Source: Fibrobacter sp. UWB4 (lineage in GTDB: Bacteria; Fibrobacterota; Fibrobacteria; Fibrobacterales; Fibrobacteraceae). From it: a stretch of DNA of 64,000 nt. How positions within the stretch are numbered: the stretch's first letter is position 1; the number at the start of each line of letters is the position of its first letter. The DNA lies in assembly GCF_002210345.1 (NCBI RefSeq), contig NZ_MWQI01000009.1, forward strand, positions 1 through 64,000. The letters run 5' to 3'. The position numbers were made by a program, and so were the translations under genes. The notes under the pieces were generated by a model that saw only the letters and a program-made list of their open reading frames with translations, had not been told where the DNA came from and did no database searches. Shown piece by piece: positions 8,729 through 62,174 of the stretch.

Positions 8729-11461
8729 ATGAGAAAACTTCTATCATTTATTCTACTATGCGCGTCAATGACAATGGCTTTGACGACGTTTGATCCGGTA
8801 AAAGTTAGTAGTCCGGCAGAAGTTGACGGCTATGAATATGGAGCTGCAACGGTTTATTACAACGGTGTTTTTTATCGCTTTTATTGCTCTCTTGGAAGGG
8901 GAATAGATACGTATCACGTTATTTCTCATCCAGATAGAGAATCTTTGGATGAATCACATGATTACATTCGAATGAGAACGTCAAGAAATGGTTCTGTATG
9001 GTCTGCCTCTCGTATTGTGCTTACTCCAACTGTTGGTAATAAAGAGGAATGTGCTTGTGACCCGGCTATCATTCAAGGCTATGATGGCTATTGGTATTTG
9101 TATTATACAGGCCATAATAGCGACCAACATACTGTTACTTATGTTGCGAGATCGGAAAATATTGAAGGTCCGTATAAGCGCTATTATAGGGAATATGGTT
9201 ATAAACAATGGTTTGATGGATGGGAAGAGTATCCTGAATTTCCAGAATATCCGTATAACCTTAATTATTATGTACCTGAGCGTAATCCAGAACCGATTTT
9301 AACTCCAGAGCTACCTTTTGTTACTGGAGATGCGTACGGAGCTGGGCAACTTTCTGTAGTGAAGAAGGATGGAAAATATCATTTTTGGTTTACGGATGTG
9401 TCGGAAGCATCAGCATTCCCCAAAAGAGGAGAAACAGATTGGAAGTTTGTCCATATTGTATCAGATAGTCCTTATGAAGATTTAGATGGTGAAAACAGAG
9501 ATGTTATATCTCTTGGTGAACGGAATAAATGGGGAAAATACGAATATAAAAATAAATTTGAGCGAAATGATTTTGGCGATGTCAAATGGGATCCAGTTAA
9601 TAATCAATTTGAAATGTGGATAACTTCGGGACATTTTGATTTGTATGATGAAGTTGTGATAAGAAGGTATGTTTCTAAAGATGGTATTCGTTGGGATCGC
9701 CAAGAAAAAGACGATAAAGGACCGTACCCATTTGCAAATAATGTGGGTATGTCTGGTGATGAAAATGGATGGATTGTTGGTGGCAGGACTTTGGTTACGT
9801 TTGGAGCCCCTGATGAAAGTTTAAGTCTGTCGAGTGGAGATATAGAACGCTGGAAAACGGAGGGATCTGCCAAAAAACAACAGCCTGGCAGGCCTTGGGC
9901 GACGTATCAATTTATGGTTGGTGGACGAGAATATCTGGGAACTTATGGTATAAGAGGTGACGGTACTGGGAGTACTCCTGCGAATTTCCAGTTTCCTGTA
10001 ACATCAAGTGACTTGGAATTCATTGCTGGTGATTTCGATGGTGACGGCATAACTGATATTGGGGCTGTAGATAGGACGACTAGTAAATGGTATGTTATCT
10101 TTAGCATGTACGGGATAAAAAATGATGTTATTCCGGGACTGTTTGAGTGGGGATGGCGTTGGCCTGGATTGGCTTCTTTGGATGAAAATTATGCCATTGC
10201 TTTAGGAGATTATGATGGTGATGGTAAGACTGATCGAGCCATTGTTCATAAACCTAGTAAAACGTGGTATATTTACTCTAGTGCAAGAGGTTCTTACGAA
10301 GCTCTTGTTACTGCTAACGGAGAAACTGTTTGGGGATGGCCTCAGGATCAGGAAAGAAGAAATAAAATTGGGGAAATTACCCATGTTCTTACAGGAGACT
10401 ATGATGGCGATGGCAAGAGTGATATTGGTGCTGTTGATTGTTCCATGTCTCGTGAAAAGGGTTATTGTGAGTGGTATGTTCTTTCTAGCAAAACGGGTAA
10501 AAGAGACAATCCTTTAGTTCCAGATTATTGGGTATGGAGTGGAATGCAGAATCCTCCAATTCATGTTGTGCAAGAAGGCGATTTTGATGGTGATGGAAAA
10601 ACAGATCGTGCTATTGTGGATAACACGATGGGTTTGTGGTATTCGTATACAAGCCGTGCTGCGGGACCGTATTCCGCATTGGAAGAAGCTTATGTGTTGA
10701 CAGATGCTAATGGTAATGCGAAAAGGGACTCTAAGGGTAAGGTCCTGTATCAATGGCGTGTTGTATGGCCTTATGCCTTTGGTGGTATGGATTATGCTCA
10801 TAAACCGATTGTCGGTGATTTTAATGGTGATGGAATAAGTGATAGAACTATTTTTTGTATAGATGATTTTACGCTTCGTTCGGCCAAGATTGCTAATAAG
10901 GATAATTATTTTGAAGGCGGGTTTGTGCTTAATTATTTTTCTGCGAATGGACTCAGGAATATAATAGGTGGAAGCTCGGAACCTATAATGAGCCGGTATA
11001 ATGGTAAGACGATTGTTGGTGAAAACTATCAGTTGCTTGTTGGCAATTATGATGGTGATGCTGCTTCAGATGTTATTCTTGCTGATAGAAAGACTTCAAA
11101 ACTTTATTTCTATACATCGAAATATAAGGGAGATTATTATTTAGTGCCTAACTATAGTTTGTATCCGGTAAAGAGCGCTTATGGAGCTGTCCATAAATCG
11201 CATCCTTCTCTCTCTGAGCCATCTGTTGATGAAGGAAAACCTCAGGTTACTTCACCGAAGTCTCCTAAGTTCGATGTGCAGGGCTTGGATTTGGTGATTT
11301 CTGATATGGAATTAGGCTCTGATGTTAGAGTTTTCAATATGATTGGTCAGAATATTGTTAAGGGCAAGGCTGATTTTGCTGAAAAGAAAATTCAACTTCC
11401 GTCCAAAGGAATGTACATAGTCCGTGTAGGAAGCAAATCTTCTGTAATTAACGTAAAGTAA
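8729..11461 (+). CDS. Secreted beta-propeller (GH43-like)/VCBS-repeat protein with T9SS sorting domain
   Basis: The 910-aa product begins with a signal peptide (1-18, ending MTMA). Residues about 20-400 look like a five-bladed propeller of the GH43/GH117 type (YGAATVYYNGVFYRFYCS, CDPAIIQGYDGYWYLYYTGH, GKYHFWFTDVS); I cannot assign all three catalytic acids, so activity is uncertain. Residues about 430-810 hold at least six FG-GAP/VCBS-like Ca-binding units (GDFDGDGITDIGAVD, GDYDGDGKTDRAIV, GDYDGDGKSDIGAVD and so on). The last 65 residues are a T9SS type A-like C-terminal domain (VFNMIGQNIVKGK...GMYIVRVGSKS), which implies secretion and surface anchoring. Codons are clearly AT-biased compared with neighbours, which suggests transfer or a distinct expression class. 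The ATG at 8729 gives the signal peptide; the frame opens at 8681. Confidence 0.82.
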   Translation: MRKLLSFILLCASMTMALTTFDPVKVSSPAEVDGYEYGAATVYYNGVFYRFYCSLGRGIDTYHVISHPDRESLDESHDYIRMRTSRNGSVWSASRIVLTPTVGNKEECACDPAIIQGYDGYWYLYYTGHNSDQHTVTYVARSENIEGPYKRYYREYGYKQWFDGWEEYPEFPEYPYNLNYYVPERNPEPILTPELPFVTGDAYGAGQLSVVKKDGKYHFWFTDVSEASAFPKRGETDWKFVHIVSDSPYEDLDGENRDVISLGERNKWGKYEYKNKFERNDFGDVKWDPVNNQFEMWITSGHFDLYDEVVIRRYVSKDGIRWDRQEKDDKGPYPFANNVGMSGDENGWIVGGRTLVTFGAPDESLSLSSGDIERWKTEGSAKKQQPGRPWATYQFMVGGREYLGTYGIRGDGTGSTPANFQFPVTSSDLEFIAGDFDGDGITDIGAVDRTTSKWYVIFSMYGIKNDVIPGLFEWGWRWPGLASLDENYAIALGDYDGDGKTDRAIVHKPSKTWYIYSSARGSYEALVTANGETVWGWPQDQERRNKIGEITHVLTGDYDGDGKSDIGAVDCSMSREKGYCEWYVLSSKTGKRDNPLVPDYWVWSGMQNPPIHVVQEGDFDGDGKTDRAIVDNTMGLWYSYTSRAAGPYSALEEAYVLTDANGNAKRDSKGKVLYQWRVVWPYAFGGMDYAHKPIVGDFNGDGISDRTIFCIDDFTLRSAKIANKDNYFEGGFVLNYFSANGLRNIIGGSSEPIMSRYNGKTIVGENYQLLVGNYDGDAASDVILADRKTSKLYFYTSKYKGDYYLVPNYSLYPVKSAYGAVHKSHPSLSEPSVDEGKPQVTSPKSPKFDVQGLDLVISDMELGSDVRVFNMIGQNIVKGKADFAEKKIQLPSKGMYIVRVGSKSSVINVK

Positions 11462-41216: not shown

Positions 41217-41439
41217 AAAGACCTTTTATTTGCCTCTTTGGATGCTCTAACCTGTTGAATTGGTTGCTTTTACATCGAATAAATATGGTTTTTCGCTCTT
41301 TGCTGAGTGAAATATTGGAAAAACACCAAAAAATCAGATGATTGTTATGTTTCAATGTATAAACAATAATTTTTTTTTTATTTTATATTCCGAATTGGAC
41401 CACAGCAGGTGGTTGGTTCATGTGCCCTTGGAGATTTTA

Positions 41440-55224: not shown

Positions 55225-56055
55225 ATGAAGTCTGTAACTGAATATAAGGAATACCGCGAATATGTGCTGGATTACTATCGCGAGCGCAAGCGGTGTTCTG
55301 CATTTACGTGGCGCGAATTTGCAAAGGATGCCGGATTTGCTTCGGGCTCGTACTTGAAGCTGGTTTGCGATGGCAAGACTCGTTTGCGCGAAGAGAGCGC
55401 GAAAAAGACTGCGCTAGCGATGGGCCTGGTGGGTTTTGAGTTTGATTATTTTGTCTTGATGGTGCGTTACGAAAATGCGAAAACGGACCAAGAGAAGAAA
55501 AAGTGCTTTGAAGAGATGCAGACGCTTGCTGAGGCTAGCCGTGTGAAAATCCTCGGGAGCGAAATGTACACGTTCTATGAAACGTGGAAACATTCTGTTG
55601 TCCGTGAATTGGCTGTTGCGATGCCGGGTGCGAAACCGAACGAGATTGCGAAAGTTTGCAGGCCTCCGATTTCTGCGGCGGATGTGAGCGATAGTCTGCA
55701 TTTCCTTGTCAAGTCTGGACTTTTGAGGCGTGACATCAAGGGCAATTACCACCAGGCGAACCAATCGCTTTCGACGGGGCGCTTGAACGTGGTTGCTGTG
55801 GCGGTGCATTCGCTTTTGCGCCAGATGGGCGAATTTGCGCTGGACGCTTTTGACACGCTTCCAATCTCGGAACGCCACTTTAGCGGTATCACGATGGGCG
55901 TGACATCAGAAAGCTATGCGAAAATTGTGGATGAAATTGCAGCGTTCCGCAAGCGCATTGTGTCAATGGTCGCGGACGAGAAAAATCCAGAAAAAATTTG
56001 TCGATTGAACTTTCAGTTTTTCCCGTTGACGGAAAAAATTGACAAAAACGAGTGA
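55225..56055 (+). CDS. TIGR02147-family regulator 1 (Fibrobacter paralogous family)
   Basis: 276 aa, cytoplasmic. The opening MKSVTEYKEYREYVLDYY is characteristic of the TIGR02147 (DUF4423-type) family. Residues about 30-60 (TWREFAKDAGFASGSYLKLV) look like an XRE-type helix-turn-helix, and about 155-190 (PISAADVSDSLHFLVKSGLL) like a winged helix. I infer a DNA-binding regulator; no ligand domain is recognisable. It ends in NEXT to the next gene: the stop lies 8 bp before the FISUMP lipoprotein start at 56064. ATG 55225 was chosen because it matches the paralog's N-terminus. Confidence 0.82.
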   Translation: MKSVTEYKEYREYVLDYYRERKRCSAFTWREFAKDAGFASGSYLKLVCDGKTRLREESAKKTALAMGLVGFEFDYFVLMVRYENAKTDQEKKKCFEEMQTLAEASRVKILGSEMYTFYETWKHSVVRELAVAMPGAKPNEIAKVCRPPISAADVSDSLHFLVKSGLLRRDIKGNYHQANQSLSTGRLNVVAVAVHSLLRQMGEFALDAFDTLPISERHFSGITMGVTSESYAKIVDEIAAFRKRIVSMVADEKNPEKICRLNFQFFPLTEKIDKNE

Positions 56056-56063
56056 GTGAGATT

Positions 56064-58172
56064 ATGAAGGTGATGAAGTTTATATCAAATTTTGCAATGC
56101 TTGCTTTTGGGCTTGTGTTTTGGGCGTGTACCGAAAATAATACCGCCGGCACGAGTGATGAAAGCGAGGGCATTGTCGCTATCAAGGATCGTGAAATCGC
56201 GGGCGTGACGCAGAAGGGGCCGTTCTTGACAGGTTCCTCGTTGACGGTCCAGGAACTCGATGGTGAAACGCTTGCTCAGACTGGGAAAAGCTTTAGAACG
56301 AGTGTGAAAAGCGATCGGGGCGATTTTGTGCTTGGTGGTATAAATCTGGTTTCGCCGTATGCCTTGTTGGAAGTGAACGGTTATTATCTGAATGAAGTCT
56401 CTTGGAAAAAATCCGAGGGAATGATTGCGTTAAATGCTCTTACGGATTTGTCGGATCGTAGCCATGTGAATGTGAATATTCTGACCCATTTGACGGTAGA
56501 CCGTATTTTGACTTTGGTTCGACGCGATGGAAAAACATTTGTGGAAGCAAAAAAGCAGGCGGAAAGGGAAGTTCTGAAATCTTTTGCTGTTACGGATGAT
56601 GTTGGAAATAGCGAAGATTTGGATTTGTTTGAAAATAAAAATGGTTCCGTGTTGCTTGCAATATCTGTTTTGATGCAAGGCGAGAGAGCTGAAGCGGCGT
56701 TCTCTGAACTGCTCGCGAAAGCGGCCATTGCATTTGCGGATAGCGGAGTCTGGAATGGACCCGAAAAGGCTGAAGTTGCGGATTGGGCGTTCCTGACAGA
56801 AAAGGAATATTGGGATGCAGGTTATGGTGCCACTAGGCCCTTAATCACCGAGATTAAGAAAAATGTGGAGTCTTGGAATGTGGACCCTTTGAAGAGGGAA
56901 TATTATGCAGATTCTACTTTGGAAGTGTATATGTATGATTTTTGGGTAAAAGAATATGGGCTTGGTGAGTGTAGTGATGAAAACGTGGGTGAAATACGTA
57001 ATAATGCAGATGAGCATAGCAAGTTCTATAATATGAAGTTTAAATGCGATGGAGACTATCATAAGCATTGGATTTGGATGGGTGTCGCTGATTTTTCGGA
57101 CTCCGATTCTTCTCGAATAGTTGATTTGCAAGAACAAAAGACATATAAGATGAAACGCTTTGGGGATACCTTTTGGATGATTAGCAATTTGCAGTATGGC
57201 CCAAAGCCTTTTAAAAGTGTGTACTTGTACAAGTATGAATCTGCATCGAAAATTTGCCCTGTAGGATCTCGTTTGCCTCGATATGACGAAGTTGAAAATT
57301 TGTTGTTACAATATGGTGGTGCCGGGAAAAGTGCTGCTGATTCGTTGATGGCGGTGGATGGCTTCAATGCGCTGCAGGACGGGCCCTTCAGTATAGATTT
57401 TTGGTGGTATGATAAAAATGGCCACAGACAAGAATATGAACAAAAGGGTGTCGCGATATGGATTTCGACGACGGATATTTATTCTTATGAAAATTTTGTT
57501 TTATGGATTGATTCTGCAGGGGCTGAAATAAAAAAAATTACTGATTATTTCTCTGGCGCTTCTGTTCGCTGTGTTGTTAGTCCAGAATCGGATAAAAAAC
57601 AGGATGCTCGTGAACAGAAACAATATAGTGCGGACAGCTACATAAAAGATGTGCGCGATGATGAAGTGTACCGTTTTACTGAAATAGATGGCAAATATTG
57701 GTTGGCAGAAAACCTACGCTATAGAGAACCTGTGCTGGATACTTCGATGTGCGATGATGATGGCTGCCGTTATTCATGGCTTGAGGCTGTTGCCTCTGAT
57801 TCCGCTTACAATGTATGTCCCGAAGGTTGGCGTCTTCCAAGTCGGTTTGATTGGGATGAAATGTTGACATTTGTTGCGAATGGAGTGGTTAAGGGGAGTA
57901 CTTATGATATCGGATATAGATTGTGTGATTATAGAGAATGGGATAAAGGAGACCATATTCTTCAAGGAGAGAATGATCCTTATGATTTTAGTGTAAAATA
58001 TAATGCAGAACATATTTTTTGGACAAAATCCGACACCACTGTTAAGGAACGTTACGGTGATGAATATATCGAAAGCGCTTGGGTAATCGAGATGCGTGAT
58101 AAAGAAGCTGGATTAATTCTTGAAAGAAAACAGGATCGCTATTTAGCCGTTCGCTGCGTAAAGGATAAATAA
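56064..58172 (+). CDS. FISUMP lipoprotein 1 (two FISUMP-like domains)
   Basis: 702 aa. Signal peptide and lipobox LVFWACTEN (lipid Cys near 22). Shared module about 40-300: AGVTQKGPFLTGSSLTVQEL, NLVSPYALLEVNGYYLNEV, VNVNILTHLTVDRIL, LLAISVLMQGERAEAAF. Linker EYGLGECSDENVGEIRNN. First FISUMP-like domain from about 365 (QKTYKMKRFGDTFWMISNLQ, ICPVGSRLPRYDEV, SVRCVV) is degenerate; the second from about 520 (DEVYRFTEIDGKYWLAENLR, VCPEGWRLPSRFDW, AVRCVKDK) is closer to the consensus. FISUMP domains are known chiefly from Fibrobacter and are presumed surface-exposed. Start: ATG 56064; ATG 56073 or GTG 56052 possible. Confidence 0.82.
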   Translation: MKVMKFISNFAMLAFGLVFWACTENNTAGTSDESEGIVAIKDREIAGVTQKGPFLTGSSLTVQELDGETLAQTGKSFRTSVKSDRGDFVLGGINLVSPYALLEVNGYYLNEVSWKKSEGMIALNALTDLSDRSHVNVNILTHLTVDRILTLVRRDGKTFVEAKKQAEREVLKSFAVTDDVGNSEDLDLFENKNGSVLLAISVLMQGERAEAAFSELLAKAAIAFADSGVWNGPEKAEVADWAFLTEKEYWDAGYGATRPLITEIKKNVESWNVDPLKREYYADSTLEVYMYDFWVKEYGLGECSDENVGEIRNNADEHSKFYNMKFKCDGDYHKHWIWMGVADFSDSDSSRIVDLQEQKTYKMKRFGDTFWMISNLQYGPKPFKSVYLYKYESASKICPVGSRLPRYDEVENLLLQYGGAGKSAADSLMAVDGFNALQDGPFSIDFWWYDKNGHRQEYEQKGVAIWISTTDIYSYENFVLWIDSAGAEIKKITDYFSGASVRCVVSPESDKKQDAREQKQYSADSYIKDVRDDEVYRFTEIDGKYWLAENLRYREPVLDTSMCDDDGCRYSWLEAVASDSAYNVCPEGWRLPSRFDWDEMLTFVANGVVKGSTYDIGYRLCDYREWDKGDHILQGENDPYDFSVKYNAEHIFWTKSDTTVKERYGDEYIESAWVIEMRDKEAGLILERKQDRYLAVRCVKDK

Positions 58173-58183
58173 GGAGGCTGGGT

Positions 58184-59651
58184 ATGAAAAAAAGGATGTT
58201 GTTCTTTTTGCTTGCTTTGGGAATAGTTCTTTTGGCGTGTTCCGGTGGTGATGTTGTGGGAGGCGTTTTGGATGGCGTTGTTGCGATTAAGAATCGTAAA
58301 ATTGCAGGTGTTACGCAGAAGGGACCTTTCTTGACGGGATCTTCGGTGACGATCCAGGAACTCGATGGACGAACTTTAGCTCAAACTGGGAAAAGTTTTA
58401 AAGCTTTTGTAAAAAGCAATCAAGGTGATTTTGCTATCAAAGGTGTAAGTCTTGTTTCTCAATACGCAATGCTCGAAGTTGAAGGCTATTTTCGAAACGA
58501 AATTGCGGGAAAAAGTTCTGATGGAAAGATTCGATTAAACGCCTTGACGGATTTAAGAAAGCGTAATCATGTGAATGTGAACTTGCTTACGCATCTTGAA
58601 TCGGGTCGAATTCTTAATCTTGTCCAAAAACATGGACTTTCCGTTGATGCCGCAAGAAAACAAGCTGAACAGGAACTTTTTACGTCTTTTGGCTTCATGA
58701 ATGAAAATGCGGTTCCAGAAGATATGGATATTTTTTCAGAAAAAAATGGTGGTGCGATGCTGCTTGCTGTGAGTGTGCTAATGCTGCAAGACAGTTCAAC
58801 GGAGGCGGATTTCTCGGAACGGATGTCTAGGGCCGCTTTTGCTTTTGCCGAGAATGGAACATGGTCGGGAACGGATAGAGCGGAAATTGCAGATTGGGCC
58901 GTGTATTCCGAAGTTGCAAATGGTTCTGATTTAAGTGTGCTGCAAAGAGTTCGGAAAAATTTGGAATCTTGGAATGAGTCTGTCCCTCCGTTTGAAACGT
59001 ATATCAACCTTTTTTGGTCTAACGAATATGGATTGGGCGTATGTAGTGATGAAAACTTTCATGAGGTTCGTCCTAACATAAATGAAAACAGCTTGTTTTA
59101 TCTGGATGAGTTCGTATGTAACTCGAATCATCGCTGGAGCTTGATTGCGTATCGAGAAAATGCAGGCGATATTAATGTTGCTGGCGTTTATTGGGCGCCT
59201 AGAAATGTTGGATGTGAGAAACAGAAGTCCCACGTTGGCTATCTTCCAGATCTTATTGATAGTGTTTTAAGGATGGAAGAAATGGAAAAAAAACAATGTA
59301 TTACTTATGGCGGGTACTTTTATGCATATGATGCTTTGAATGTGTGCCCGGATGGATATCGGTTGCCGACGCAGGAAGAAGCACAAGCTCTGATAGATGC
59401 GTATGGTGGAAGTGAAAAAGCGGCCGTTGGCTTGCGATCTGTAGATGGCTTTGCTGCAGTGATGGGGGGGGCGTGTTGAGCATAGGAGTGCCGCTACATC
59501 TGAATATATAGGTGTTCACAAGGTAGGCGAATTTTGGATATCGACTTCAATTATGGGTGACCGTTATATTCTGAAAATAGACTCGAATGGGGCTTCCTTT
59601 GCTGGAGATTATGGTGCAGCAAGACCTGTTCGTTGCGTAAGGAACTTTTAA
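58184..59651 (+). CDS. FISUMP lipoprotein 2, interrupted by a poly-G frameshift
   Basis: The ATG at 58184 (RBS AAGGAGG) opens a 431-aa frame that stops at 59479. It contains lipobox VLLACSGG, the shared module (AGVTQKGPFLTGSSVTIQEL, VSQYAMLEVEGYF, VNVNLLTHLESGRIL) and the first half of a FISUMP domain (CPDGYRLPTQEEAQ). At 59464-59471 eight G occur. Removing one G restores the frame through VGEFWISTSIMGD and PVRCVRNF to the TAA at 59649-59651, where FISUMP domains normally end (full product 488 aa). The remaining sequence shows no decay. This fits slipped-strand phase variation, a recent mutation or a sequencing error. The next gene follows after 17 bp. Confidence 0.75.
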
Positions 59652-59668: not shown

Positions 59669-61135
59669 ATGAAAAAGATGACTTTGTTTGTGCTGTTTAT
59701 TGCTCTCTGTTTGCTTTGCTGTTGTTCTTCGGAAAATCCAATGGAGGTTCCAGGAGCTGGATTGCATTTTGACGGAACTGTTGATGGCGTTTCGCAAAAA
59801 GGTCCTTTTTTGACGGGAGCCACGGTGACCCTTCAGGAACTTGATGCGAAATCCTTGGAACAGACTGGAAAAAGTTTTAAGGGGAAGATTGCAAATGATA
59901 AAGGTGAGTTCGCGGTCGATAATGTTGATTTGAACTCCCCGTATGCACTGCTTGTGGCCAATGGGTATTTCCGCAATGAGGTGACGGGTAAAAAATCGGG
60001 TGGCACGATAACTTTGATGGCGTTTGCGGATTTGTCGAACTGTTCTCATGTGAATATCAATTTGTTGACCCACTTGGAATATGAGAGAATTCGTGTGTTG
60101 TTGGATCAAAAGAAAATGTCTTTCGTAAAAGCCAAAAACAAGGCGGAGCAAGAAATATTCTTAAACTTTTTTAATATGCCAGCTTCTGAAAAAGCTGAAA
60201 ACTTGAGTATTTTTGAGGATAGTGAAGGAGGCAAGGCTCTGCTTGCGATAAATGTCCTTTTGCTGGGAAATTTAAGTGAACCTGAATTTATGGAACGCTT
60301 GGTCGCGTTGAGCGATGATTTTGCTCGTGATGGCGTTTGGGATGATTCTCTTCTCAAAGTGAAAATTGCCGATTATGCTTGTGAGTTGAGCATATGGGGC
60401 GAACTTCTGGAAATTCGCAAGAATATAGAAGCTTGGAAAATTGCCGATGTTCCGGCGTTTGAACCTTATGTGAACCGTTTTTGGACGGACCTGTATGGTC
60501 TTGGAAAATGCGATGCTTCGAATGTGGGTGTACGCAAGAAGAATGCTAATGAAACCAGTGCTCTCTATGGCATGAATTTTGTCTGTGATAAGGATAGTGG
60601 ATGGGTTGCAAATAAGAATGAATTTTACGGCGGTTGTGATTCTTGTTCTGTGATGAGGGACCCCCGTGATGGTCATGTGTATAAATATTGGAATGTGGAT
60701 GGAGTTGACTGGATGGCGTCAAATCTCAGGTTTGATAACGGTGATTTTGAATGCTTCTTTGGGAACTGCGATGCTTATGGTTATCTCTATAAATCTCCTG
60801 GAATAAGCATTTATAGTGATGGATCCTACTACAATGACTATGACCCCGACGGTGATCCTGTTGCGGGTATATGCCCTAGTGGCTGGCGTGTTCCTGTATT
60901 TGAGCATCTTATACATTTGGACGATGCTGCTTCCAAAAATGACATAAAACAGCTTTTCTCGGAAGCTGAAAGGAATATCATTTTGGCGTCGGGGGCTAAT
61001 TCGACTTCTTATTGGACTGCTGATGTTTCGTATACGGGATATCGCCGTGCCTTGATTGTAAATAGTGACGGTTATTTTTATTGGTCGATGAAAGAAAAGG
61101 GTGATGTCTTCTTCGTCCGTTGCGTCAGAGATTAG
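59669..61135 (+). CDS. FISUMP lipoprotein 3
   Basis: 488 aa. Lipobox CLLCCCSSEN (Cys near 18-20). Shared module about 30-280: DGVSQKGPFLTGATVTLQEL, DLNSPYALLVANGYFRNEV, VNINLLTHLEYERI, LLAINVLLLGNLSEPEF. Linker YGLGKCDASNVGVRKKN and FVCDKDSGW. FISUMP-like domain from about 345: GHVYKYWNVDGVDWMASNLR, GICPSGWRVPVFEHL, YWTADVSYTG, FFVRCVRD. AAAGGAGGATAATC gives a strong RBS. Last gene of the four-gene unit that begins with regulator 1. Confidence 0.82.
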   Translation: MKKMTLFVLFIALCLLCCCSSENPMEVPGAGLHFDGTVDGVSQKGPFLTGATVTLQELDAKSLEQTGKSFKGKIANDKGEFAVDNVDLNSPYALLVANGYFRNEVTGKKSGGTITLMAFADLSNCSHVNINLLTHLEYERIRVLLDQKKMSFVKAKNKAEQEIFLNFFNMPASEKAENLSIFEDSEGGKALLAINVLLLGNLSEPEFMERLVALSDDFARDGVWDDSLLKVKIADYACELSIWGELLEIRKNIEAWKIADVPAFEPYVNRFWTDLYGLGKCDASNVGVRKKNANETSALYGMNFVCDKDSGWVANKNEFYGGCDSCSVMRDPRDGHVYKYWNVDGVDWMASNLRFDNGDFECFFGNCDAYGYLYKSPGISIYSDGSYYNDYDPDGDPVAGICPSGWRVPVFEHLIHLDDAASKNDIKQLFSEAERNIILASGANSTSYWTADVSYTGYRRALIVNSDGYFYWSMKEKGDVFFVRCVRD

Positions 61136-61319: not shown

Positions 61320-62174
61320 ATGAAGGAAATCGTTGAATATACGGATTATCGCAAGTACATCCAGGACTACTATGACGAGCGTAAACGCACATCGGCGTTT
61401 TCTTGGCATATGTTTGCGCAGAAGGCGGGTTTTGCGTCGGATGTCTATCTGAAGTATGTTTGCGAGGGAAAGAAAAATCTGAGTGTCGGTTCTGCGGGTT
61501 CTGTTGCAAGTGCCATGGGCCTTGTCGGATTTGAACAGACTTACTTTGTCCTGATGGTCTCGTATGCCCATGCGAAAGATGACAAGACGAAGCGCGCTGC
61601 ATTTGAAGAACGCTGTGCGCTTGCGAATGCGCACAAGATGCGTGTTCTTGGGGATGAAGAGTTCAATTATTTCAAATCGTGGAAAAATTCCGTGATTCGA
61701 GAATTGGCTCCGCACATGCCCGGCGCAAAGCCTCTCGAAATGGCGCGAGCTTGCAAGCAGAAGATTTCGGCAACGGAAGTTTCCGAGACGCTTGATTTTT
61801 TGGTGAAGGCAAAGCTTTTAAAGAAGGACAAAAACGGAAACTACCAGCAAACAGATAAGGCCATCAGGATGGCGCCTGTGGAGGCGGTTCCCTTGGCGGC
61901 TCGTGATTTGCAGCGCCAGATGGGAGAGTTTGCGATACAGTCGCTTGATTTGCCTCTTTCTGAACGCATGATGTCGGGCTATACGCTTGGTCTTACGCGT
62001 CGTGCGTACGAACGCATCAAAAAAGAGACGGAAGATTATTACCGCCGCGTGGTGGCGATTGCGACTGAGGAAGATGAAACGGAACAGGTTTACCGCTTGA
62101 ACGTGCAGTTGTTCCCGCTGAGCGAACGCTTGAATAAAAATGAAACGGATTTAAATAAGGACAAAACGAAATGA
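61320..62174 (+). CDS. TIGR02147-family regulator 2
   Basis: 284 aa, clearly paralogous to the protein at 55225: MKEIVEYTDYRKYIQDYYDE, SWHMFAQKAGFASDVYLKYV (HTH-like), MGLVGFEQTYFVLMVSYAHA, MPGAKPLEMARACKQKISAT, ETLDFLVKAKLLKKDKNGNY (winged-helix-like), LQRQMGEFAIQSLDLPLSER. The C-terminal tail is charged. Its stop overlaps the start of the next lipoprotein gene (ATGA), so regulator and lipoprotein are translationally coupled. Confidence 0.84.
   Translation: MKEIVEYTDYRKYIQDYYDERKRTSAFSWHMFAQKAGFASDVYLKYVCEGKKNLSVGSAGSVASAMGLVGFEQTYFVLMVSYAHAKDDKTKRAAFEERCALANAHKMRVLGDEEFNYFKSWKNSVIRELAPHMPGAKPLEMARACKQKISATEVSETLDFLVKAKLLKKDKNGNYQQTDKAIRMAPVEAVPLAARDLQRQMGEFAIQSLDLPLSERMMSGYTLGLTRRAYERIKKETEDYYRRVVAIATEEDETEQVYRLNVQLFPLSERLNKNETDLNKDKTK

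Follow-up and report, generated by a model that had tools for sequence, protein, structure and literature searches.

A frame break at a run of eight G's in a FISUMP lipoprotein gene of Fibrobacter

In a Fibrobacter genome, the open reading frame of a FISUMP lipoprotein stops shortly after a run of eight G's, and the rest of the domain continues in another frame. Is this run a reversible switch, as a reading of the sequence alone had proposed, the mark of a gene that has been lost or an error in the assembly? We analysed a window of 64,000 nucleotides on contig C9 of the genome (F. succinogenes group; 3.58 Mb in 18 contigs), the nearest named relatives of which are the F. succinogenes MAGs RUG12439 and RUG12208. 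The probable explanation, in our view, is a recent, lineage-specific strand-slippage frameshift that truncated one redundant FISUMP lipoprotein.

The truncated gene and its reading frame

The truncated gene (58184–59479, plus strand) encodes 431 amino acids, starting with a lipoprotein signal (MKKRMLFFLLALGIVLLACS; lipobox LLACS) and ending in GFAAVMGGAC. Its stop codon (59477–59479) lies 8 nt past the run, which by exact letter count spans 59464–59471 on the plus strand. In profile searches the open reading frame matches TIGR02145 and PF09603 over part of the model only, and these partial matches bear out the identification as a FISUMP lipoprotein made from the sequence alone. The TIGR02145 score (28.5 bits) stays below the family cut-off (41.65), a consequence of the domain being interrupted by the frame break; intact relatives carry the missing part.

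The remainder of the domain (59472–59651, plus strand) comprises 59 codons (RVEHRSAATSEYIGVHKVGEFWISTSIMGDRYILKIDSNGASFAGDYGAARPVRCVRNF) that end in RCVRNF and are terminated by a TAA at 59649–59651, without an additional stop or frame shift. It is 49% identical to the C terminus of an intact relative in genome G072, with GEFW.STS and VRCVRNF aligned in register. Relative to this gene, insertions and deletions other than the G run add up to multiples of three; this leaves a single net frame offset, located at the run. In the assembly the G run does break the frame, as the sequence-only reading had stated, and its claim that the downstream part is intact also holds; the open and homologous remainder implies a young event. 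Two properties of a poly-G phase-variable gene are therefore present: a run of at least 7–8 G's within the reading frame, and a change in run length that throws the rest of an intact gene, here the 59 open and homologous codons, out of frame.

Related genomes and the case for a switch

High-identity copies of the gene occur in three other Fibrobacter genomes, with DNA identities of 87% in G072 (the better of two copies) and 80–81% in G046 and G075. None of these three genomes has a G run at the corresponding site, where the codons are GGC GGT, GGT GGT or AGT GGT. The reading frame is open throughout in the G075 copy and in both G072 copies. The G046 orthologue is itself frame-broken about 180 nt earlier (contig C3, about 135,225–135,245), at an A8 run or immediately ahead of it, and its own C terminus is open in another frame. 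According to the homopolymer check and the comparison of orthologues, the counterpart of that A8 run in the truncated gene (59286–59293, plus strand) is frame-neutral. The G046 break is either slippage or an adjacent deletion; because it lies at another place, the gene can evidently be lost, and repeated breakage at differing sites fits tolerated loss better than a single conserved switch.

True phase variation, in which the G run would slip to and fro at a high rate and toggle the C-terminal FISUMP part to give clonal surface heterogeneity, is in our judgement rather unlikely. Several observations speak for it and against a slippage loss. Eight G's lie inside a surface lipoprotein with the remainder uninterrupted, and switching by runs of at least eight G's has been demonstrated for Campylobacter genes (PMC6321876), so that the length would suffice. 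Two of the four orthologous loci are frame-broken at or near homopolymers, as a contingency locus would also show, and a surface-type acyltransferase gene elsewhere in the genome is split at a G11 run. Against phase variation stands the absence of the run from all three relatives, together with the presence of MutS (TIGR01070) and MutL (TIGR00585), both above cut-off in a profile search of the genome. Moreover, switching at the G7 run of Neisseria siaD is too infrequent to give efficient phase variation (PMC5953494).

The distribution of G runs also counts against a switch. This is the sole G8 in the window, where dinucleotide shuffles give an expectation of 0.78, and by that measure its presence is unremarkable in itself. 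Pattern searches of the whole genome gave 7 exact G8 runs and 6 runs of 9–11 G's, no sign of enrichment against about 44 G8 matches expected from a crude extrapolation of the window figure (0.78 per 64 kb). The run is thus neither kept in homologues nor part of a genome-wide excess. Among 80 congeneric genomes searched for at least 7 G's followed within 20–80 nt by an FW-S-like motif, no second frame break was found at such a run ahead of the FISUMP motif; the other matches were a FISUMP-like gene with an in-frame G7 in G052 and two that are not FISUMP-like (judged from the matched letters only). Runs of at least 9 G's sampled in five other genomes are mostly intergenic. With the G046 orthologue broken elsewhere, these results leave the phase-variation switch of the sequence-only reading unestablished.

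The acyltransferase gene (Acyl_transf_3; contig C8, about 93,341–93,353, minus strand) is split exactly at its G11 run, and its C-terminal part reads on in a different frame; the gene has only distant relatives in the genus. It is a better candidate for phase variation than the FISUMP gene of the same genome. A protein of a related family in genome G004 has an in-frame G10. On contig C13 (about 9,663–9,672, minus strand), the gene for a HESMH-motif protein looks decayed and has a G8 at one frame break; the surrounding frames are broken at several places, as in a decayed gene, and we did not count it as a second G8-broken case. A broader reading seems to us unlikely, namely that Fibrobacter, a cellulose degrader of the gut that is not among the classic phase-variable pathogens, relies on slippage at homopolymers as a contingency mechanism for its surface: G or A runs would act in the FISUMP lipoproteins, and G runs in acyltransferases that modify the surface. 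If the switch were true, a bacterium with a major part in degrading fibre in the herbivore gut would have surface proteins that vary within a clone, which could bear on fibre attachment and on escape from phages.

Other homopolymers and the remaining alternatives

An error of sequencing or assembly, with a true run length that differs and a gene that is intact, would be in keeping with the uninterrupted remainder and with the fact that base-call indels are commonest at homopolymers. We nevertheless regard it as quite unlikely. Eleven other homopolymers of at least 7 within the open reading frames of the window are compatible with open frames, the A7, A7 and A8 runs of the truncated gene itself leave its frame unbroken, and the in-frame G8 of a lipoprotein gene on contig C1 (about 783,035) leaves that gene intact. 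The genome has 63 TIGR02145 matches, none with internal stops, and among those inspected only the truncated gene ends at a homopolymer. The intact homopolymers elsewhere argue against a systematic homopolymer problem; a single error is compatible with them. A T10 run in the window (41370–41379) lies just ahead of the probable start of a gene for a Wzc-like polysaccharide tyrosine kinase and could alter its expression if its length varies.

Programmed recoding, in which a ribosome or polymerase slips on the run to yield full and short proteins, would suit a homopolymer directly ahead of a stop codon, but we reject it as highly improbable because the site is not conserved, the genes of relatives, which lack the run, are read through, and a search of the region found no Rfam elements.

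The FISUMP family and the consequence of the cut

The truncated gene lies in a group headed by a TIGR02147 (Fsuc_second) gene (55228–56055, plus strand; 285.7 bits). Immediately upstream is an intact lipoprotein gene with two FISUMP domains (56052–58172, plus strand; TIGR02145, 124 bits), and downstream is another intact FISUMP lipoprotein gene, which ends in VRCVRD (59669–61135, plus strand; TIGR02145, 60.9 bits). TIGR02147 genes lie repeatedly upstream of FISUMP lipoprotein groups, both in the window (55228–56055 and 61320–62174) and in G072, G046 and G075, and are possible group-specific regulators.

The C-terminal tips of these proteins change quickly, and at 56052–58172 and 59669–61135 they have diverged several-fold faster than the N-terminal parts. 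Relative to G072, dN is 0.063 and dS 0.238 across the 426 codons preceding the run, and 0.436 and 0.415 across the 59-codon remainder. We rejected this divergence as a sign of decay: the tip of an intact neighbour diverges equally (ratio about 1.06 in its last 70 codons and 0.23 in its first 330, also relative to G072), so the divergence is a trait of FISUMP tips in this group. At the protein level, the intact neighbour diverges several-fold more over roughly its last 120 codons than over the rest, consistently across four genomes. The FISUMP copies of G072 and G075 are near-identical up to roughly the final 60 codons, where they become sharply different, as if tips had been swapped by recombination.

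We modelled the last 180 residues of an intact relative with modest confidence (mean pLDDT 66.2; 9 sequences); in it the truncation point lies near residue 114, ahead of a C-terminal run of seven strands. A fold search of the PDB with the same modest-confidence model gave no significant match, and the weak ones include several C-type lectins. The FISUMP domain has been proposed to act in a cohesin-like way or to bind cellulose (PMC4704652). The truncated lipoprotein would retain its anchor and N-terminal region and would probably be without whatever the FISUMP domain does. Loss of one copy is plausibly tolerated because there are 63 matches in this genome and 17 to 119 FISUMP copies in most Fibrobacteres genomes (PMC4704652).

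We propose that the glycine codons of the FISUMP domain at this site became G-only in this lineage, which would have created a slippage-prone run, and that a change in run length then put the remaining domain out of frame. The product would keep the lipid anchor and the conserved N-terminal region and lose the strand-rich C-terminal FISUMP part, a loss that the dozens of FISUMP domains in the genome may make tolerable, with no selected switch involved. As the evidence stands, the locus appears to be another slippage frameshift within a redundant, fast-evolving gene family.

Three known systems resemble parts of this picture. Like the poly-G phase-variable genes of Campylobacter (PMC6321876), this gene encodes a surface-type protein, contains a G8 run and is one frame off; it differs in that G runs are not enriched here, the run is not conserved in relatives and mismatch-repair genes are present. 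Diversity-generating retroelements have variable proteins that also contain the FISUMP domain (PMC4159848); these Fib_succ_major proteins are similar in carrying it at the C terminus of a lipoprotein whose tip changes fast. We rejected the gene as a target of such a retroelement because no reverse transcriptase (PF00078) was found in the genome; the change here is, in addition, a frame shift rather than adenine-directed substitution. The FISUMP (TIGR02145/PF09603) lipoproteins of Fibrobacteres (PMC4704652) are alike in domain, lipoprotein nature, high copy number and grouping with TIGR02147 genes, from which this copy departs in being cut mid-domain.
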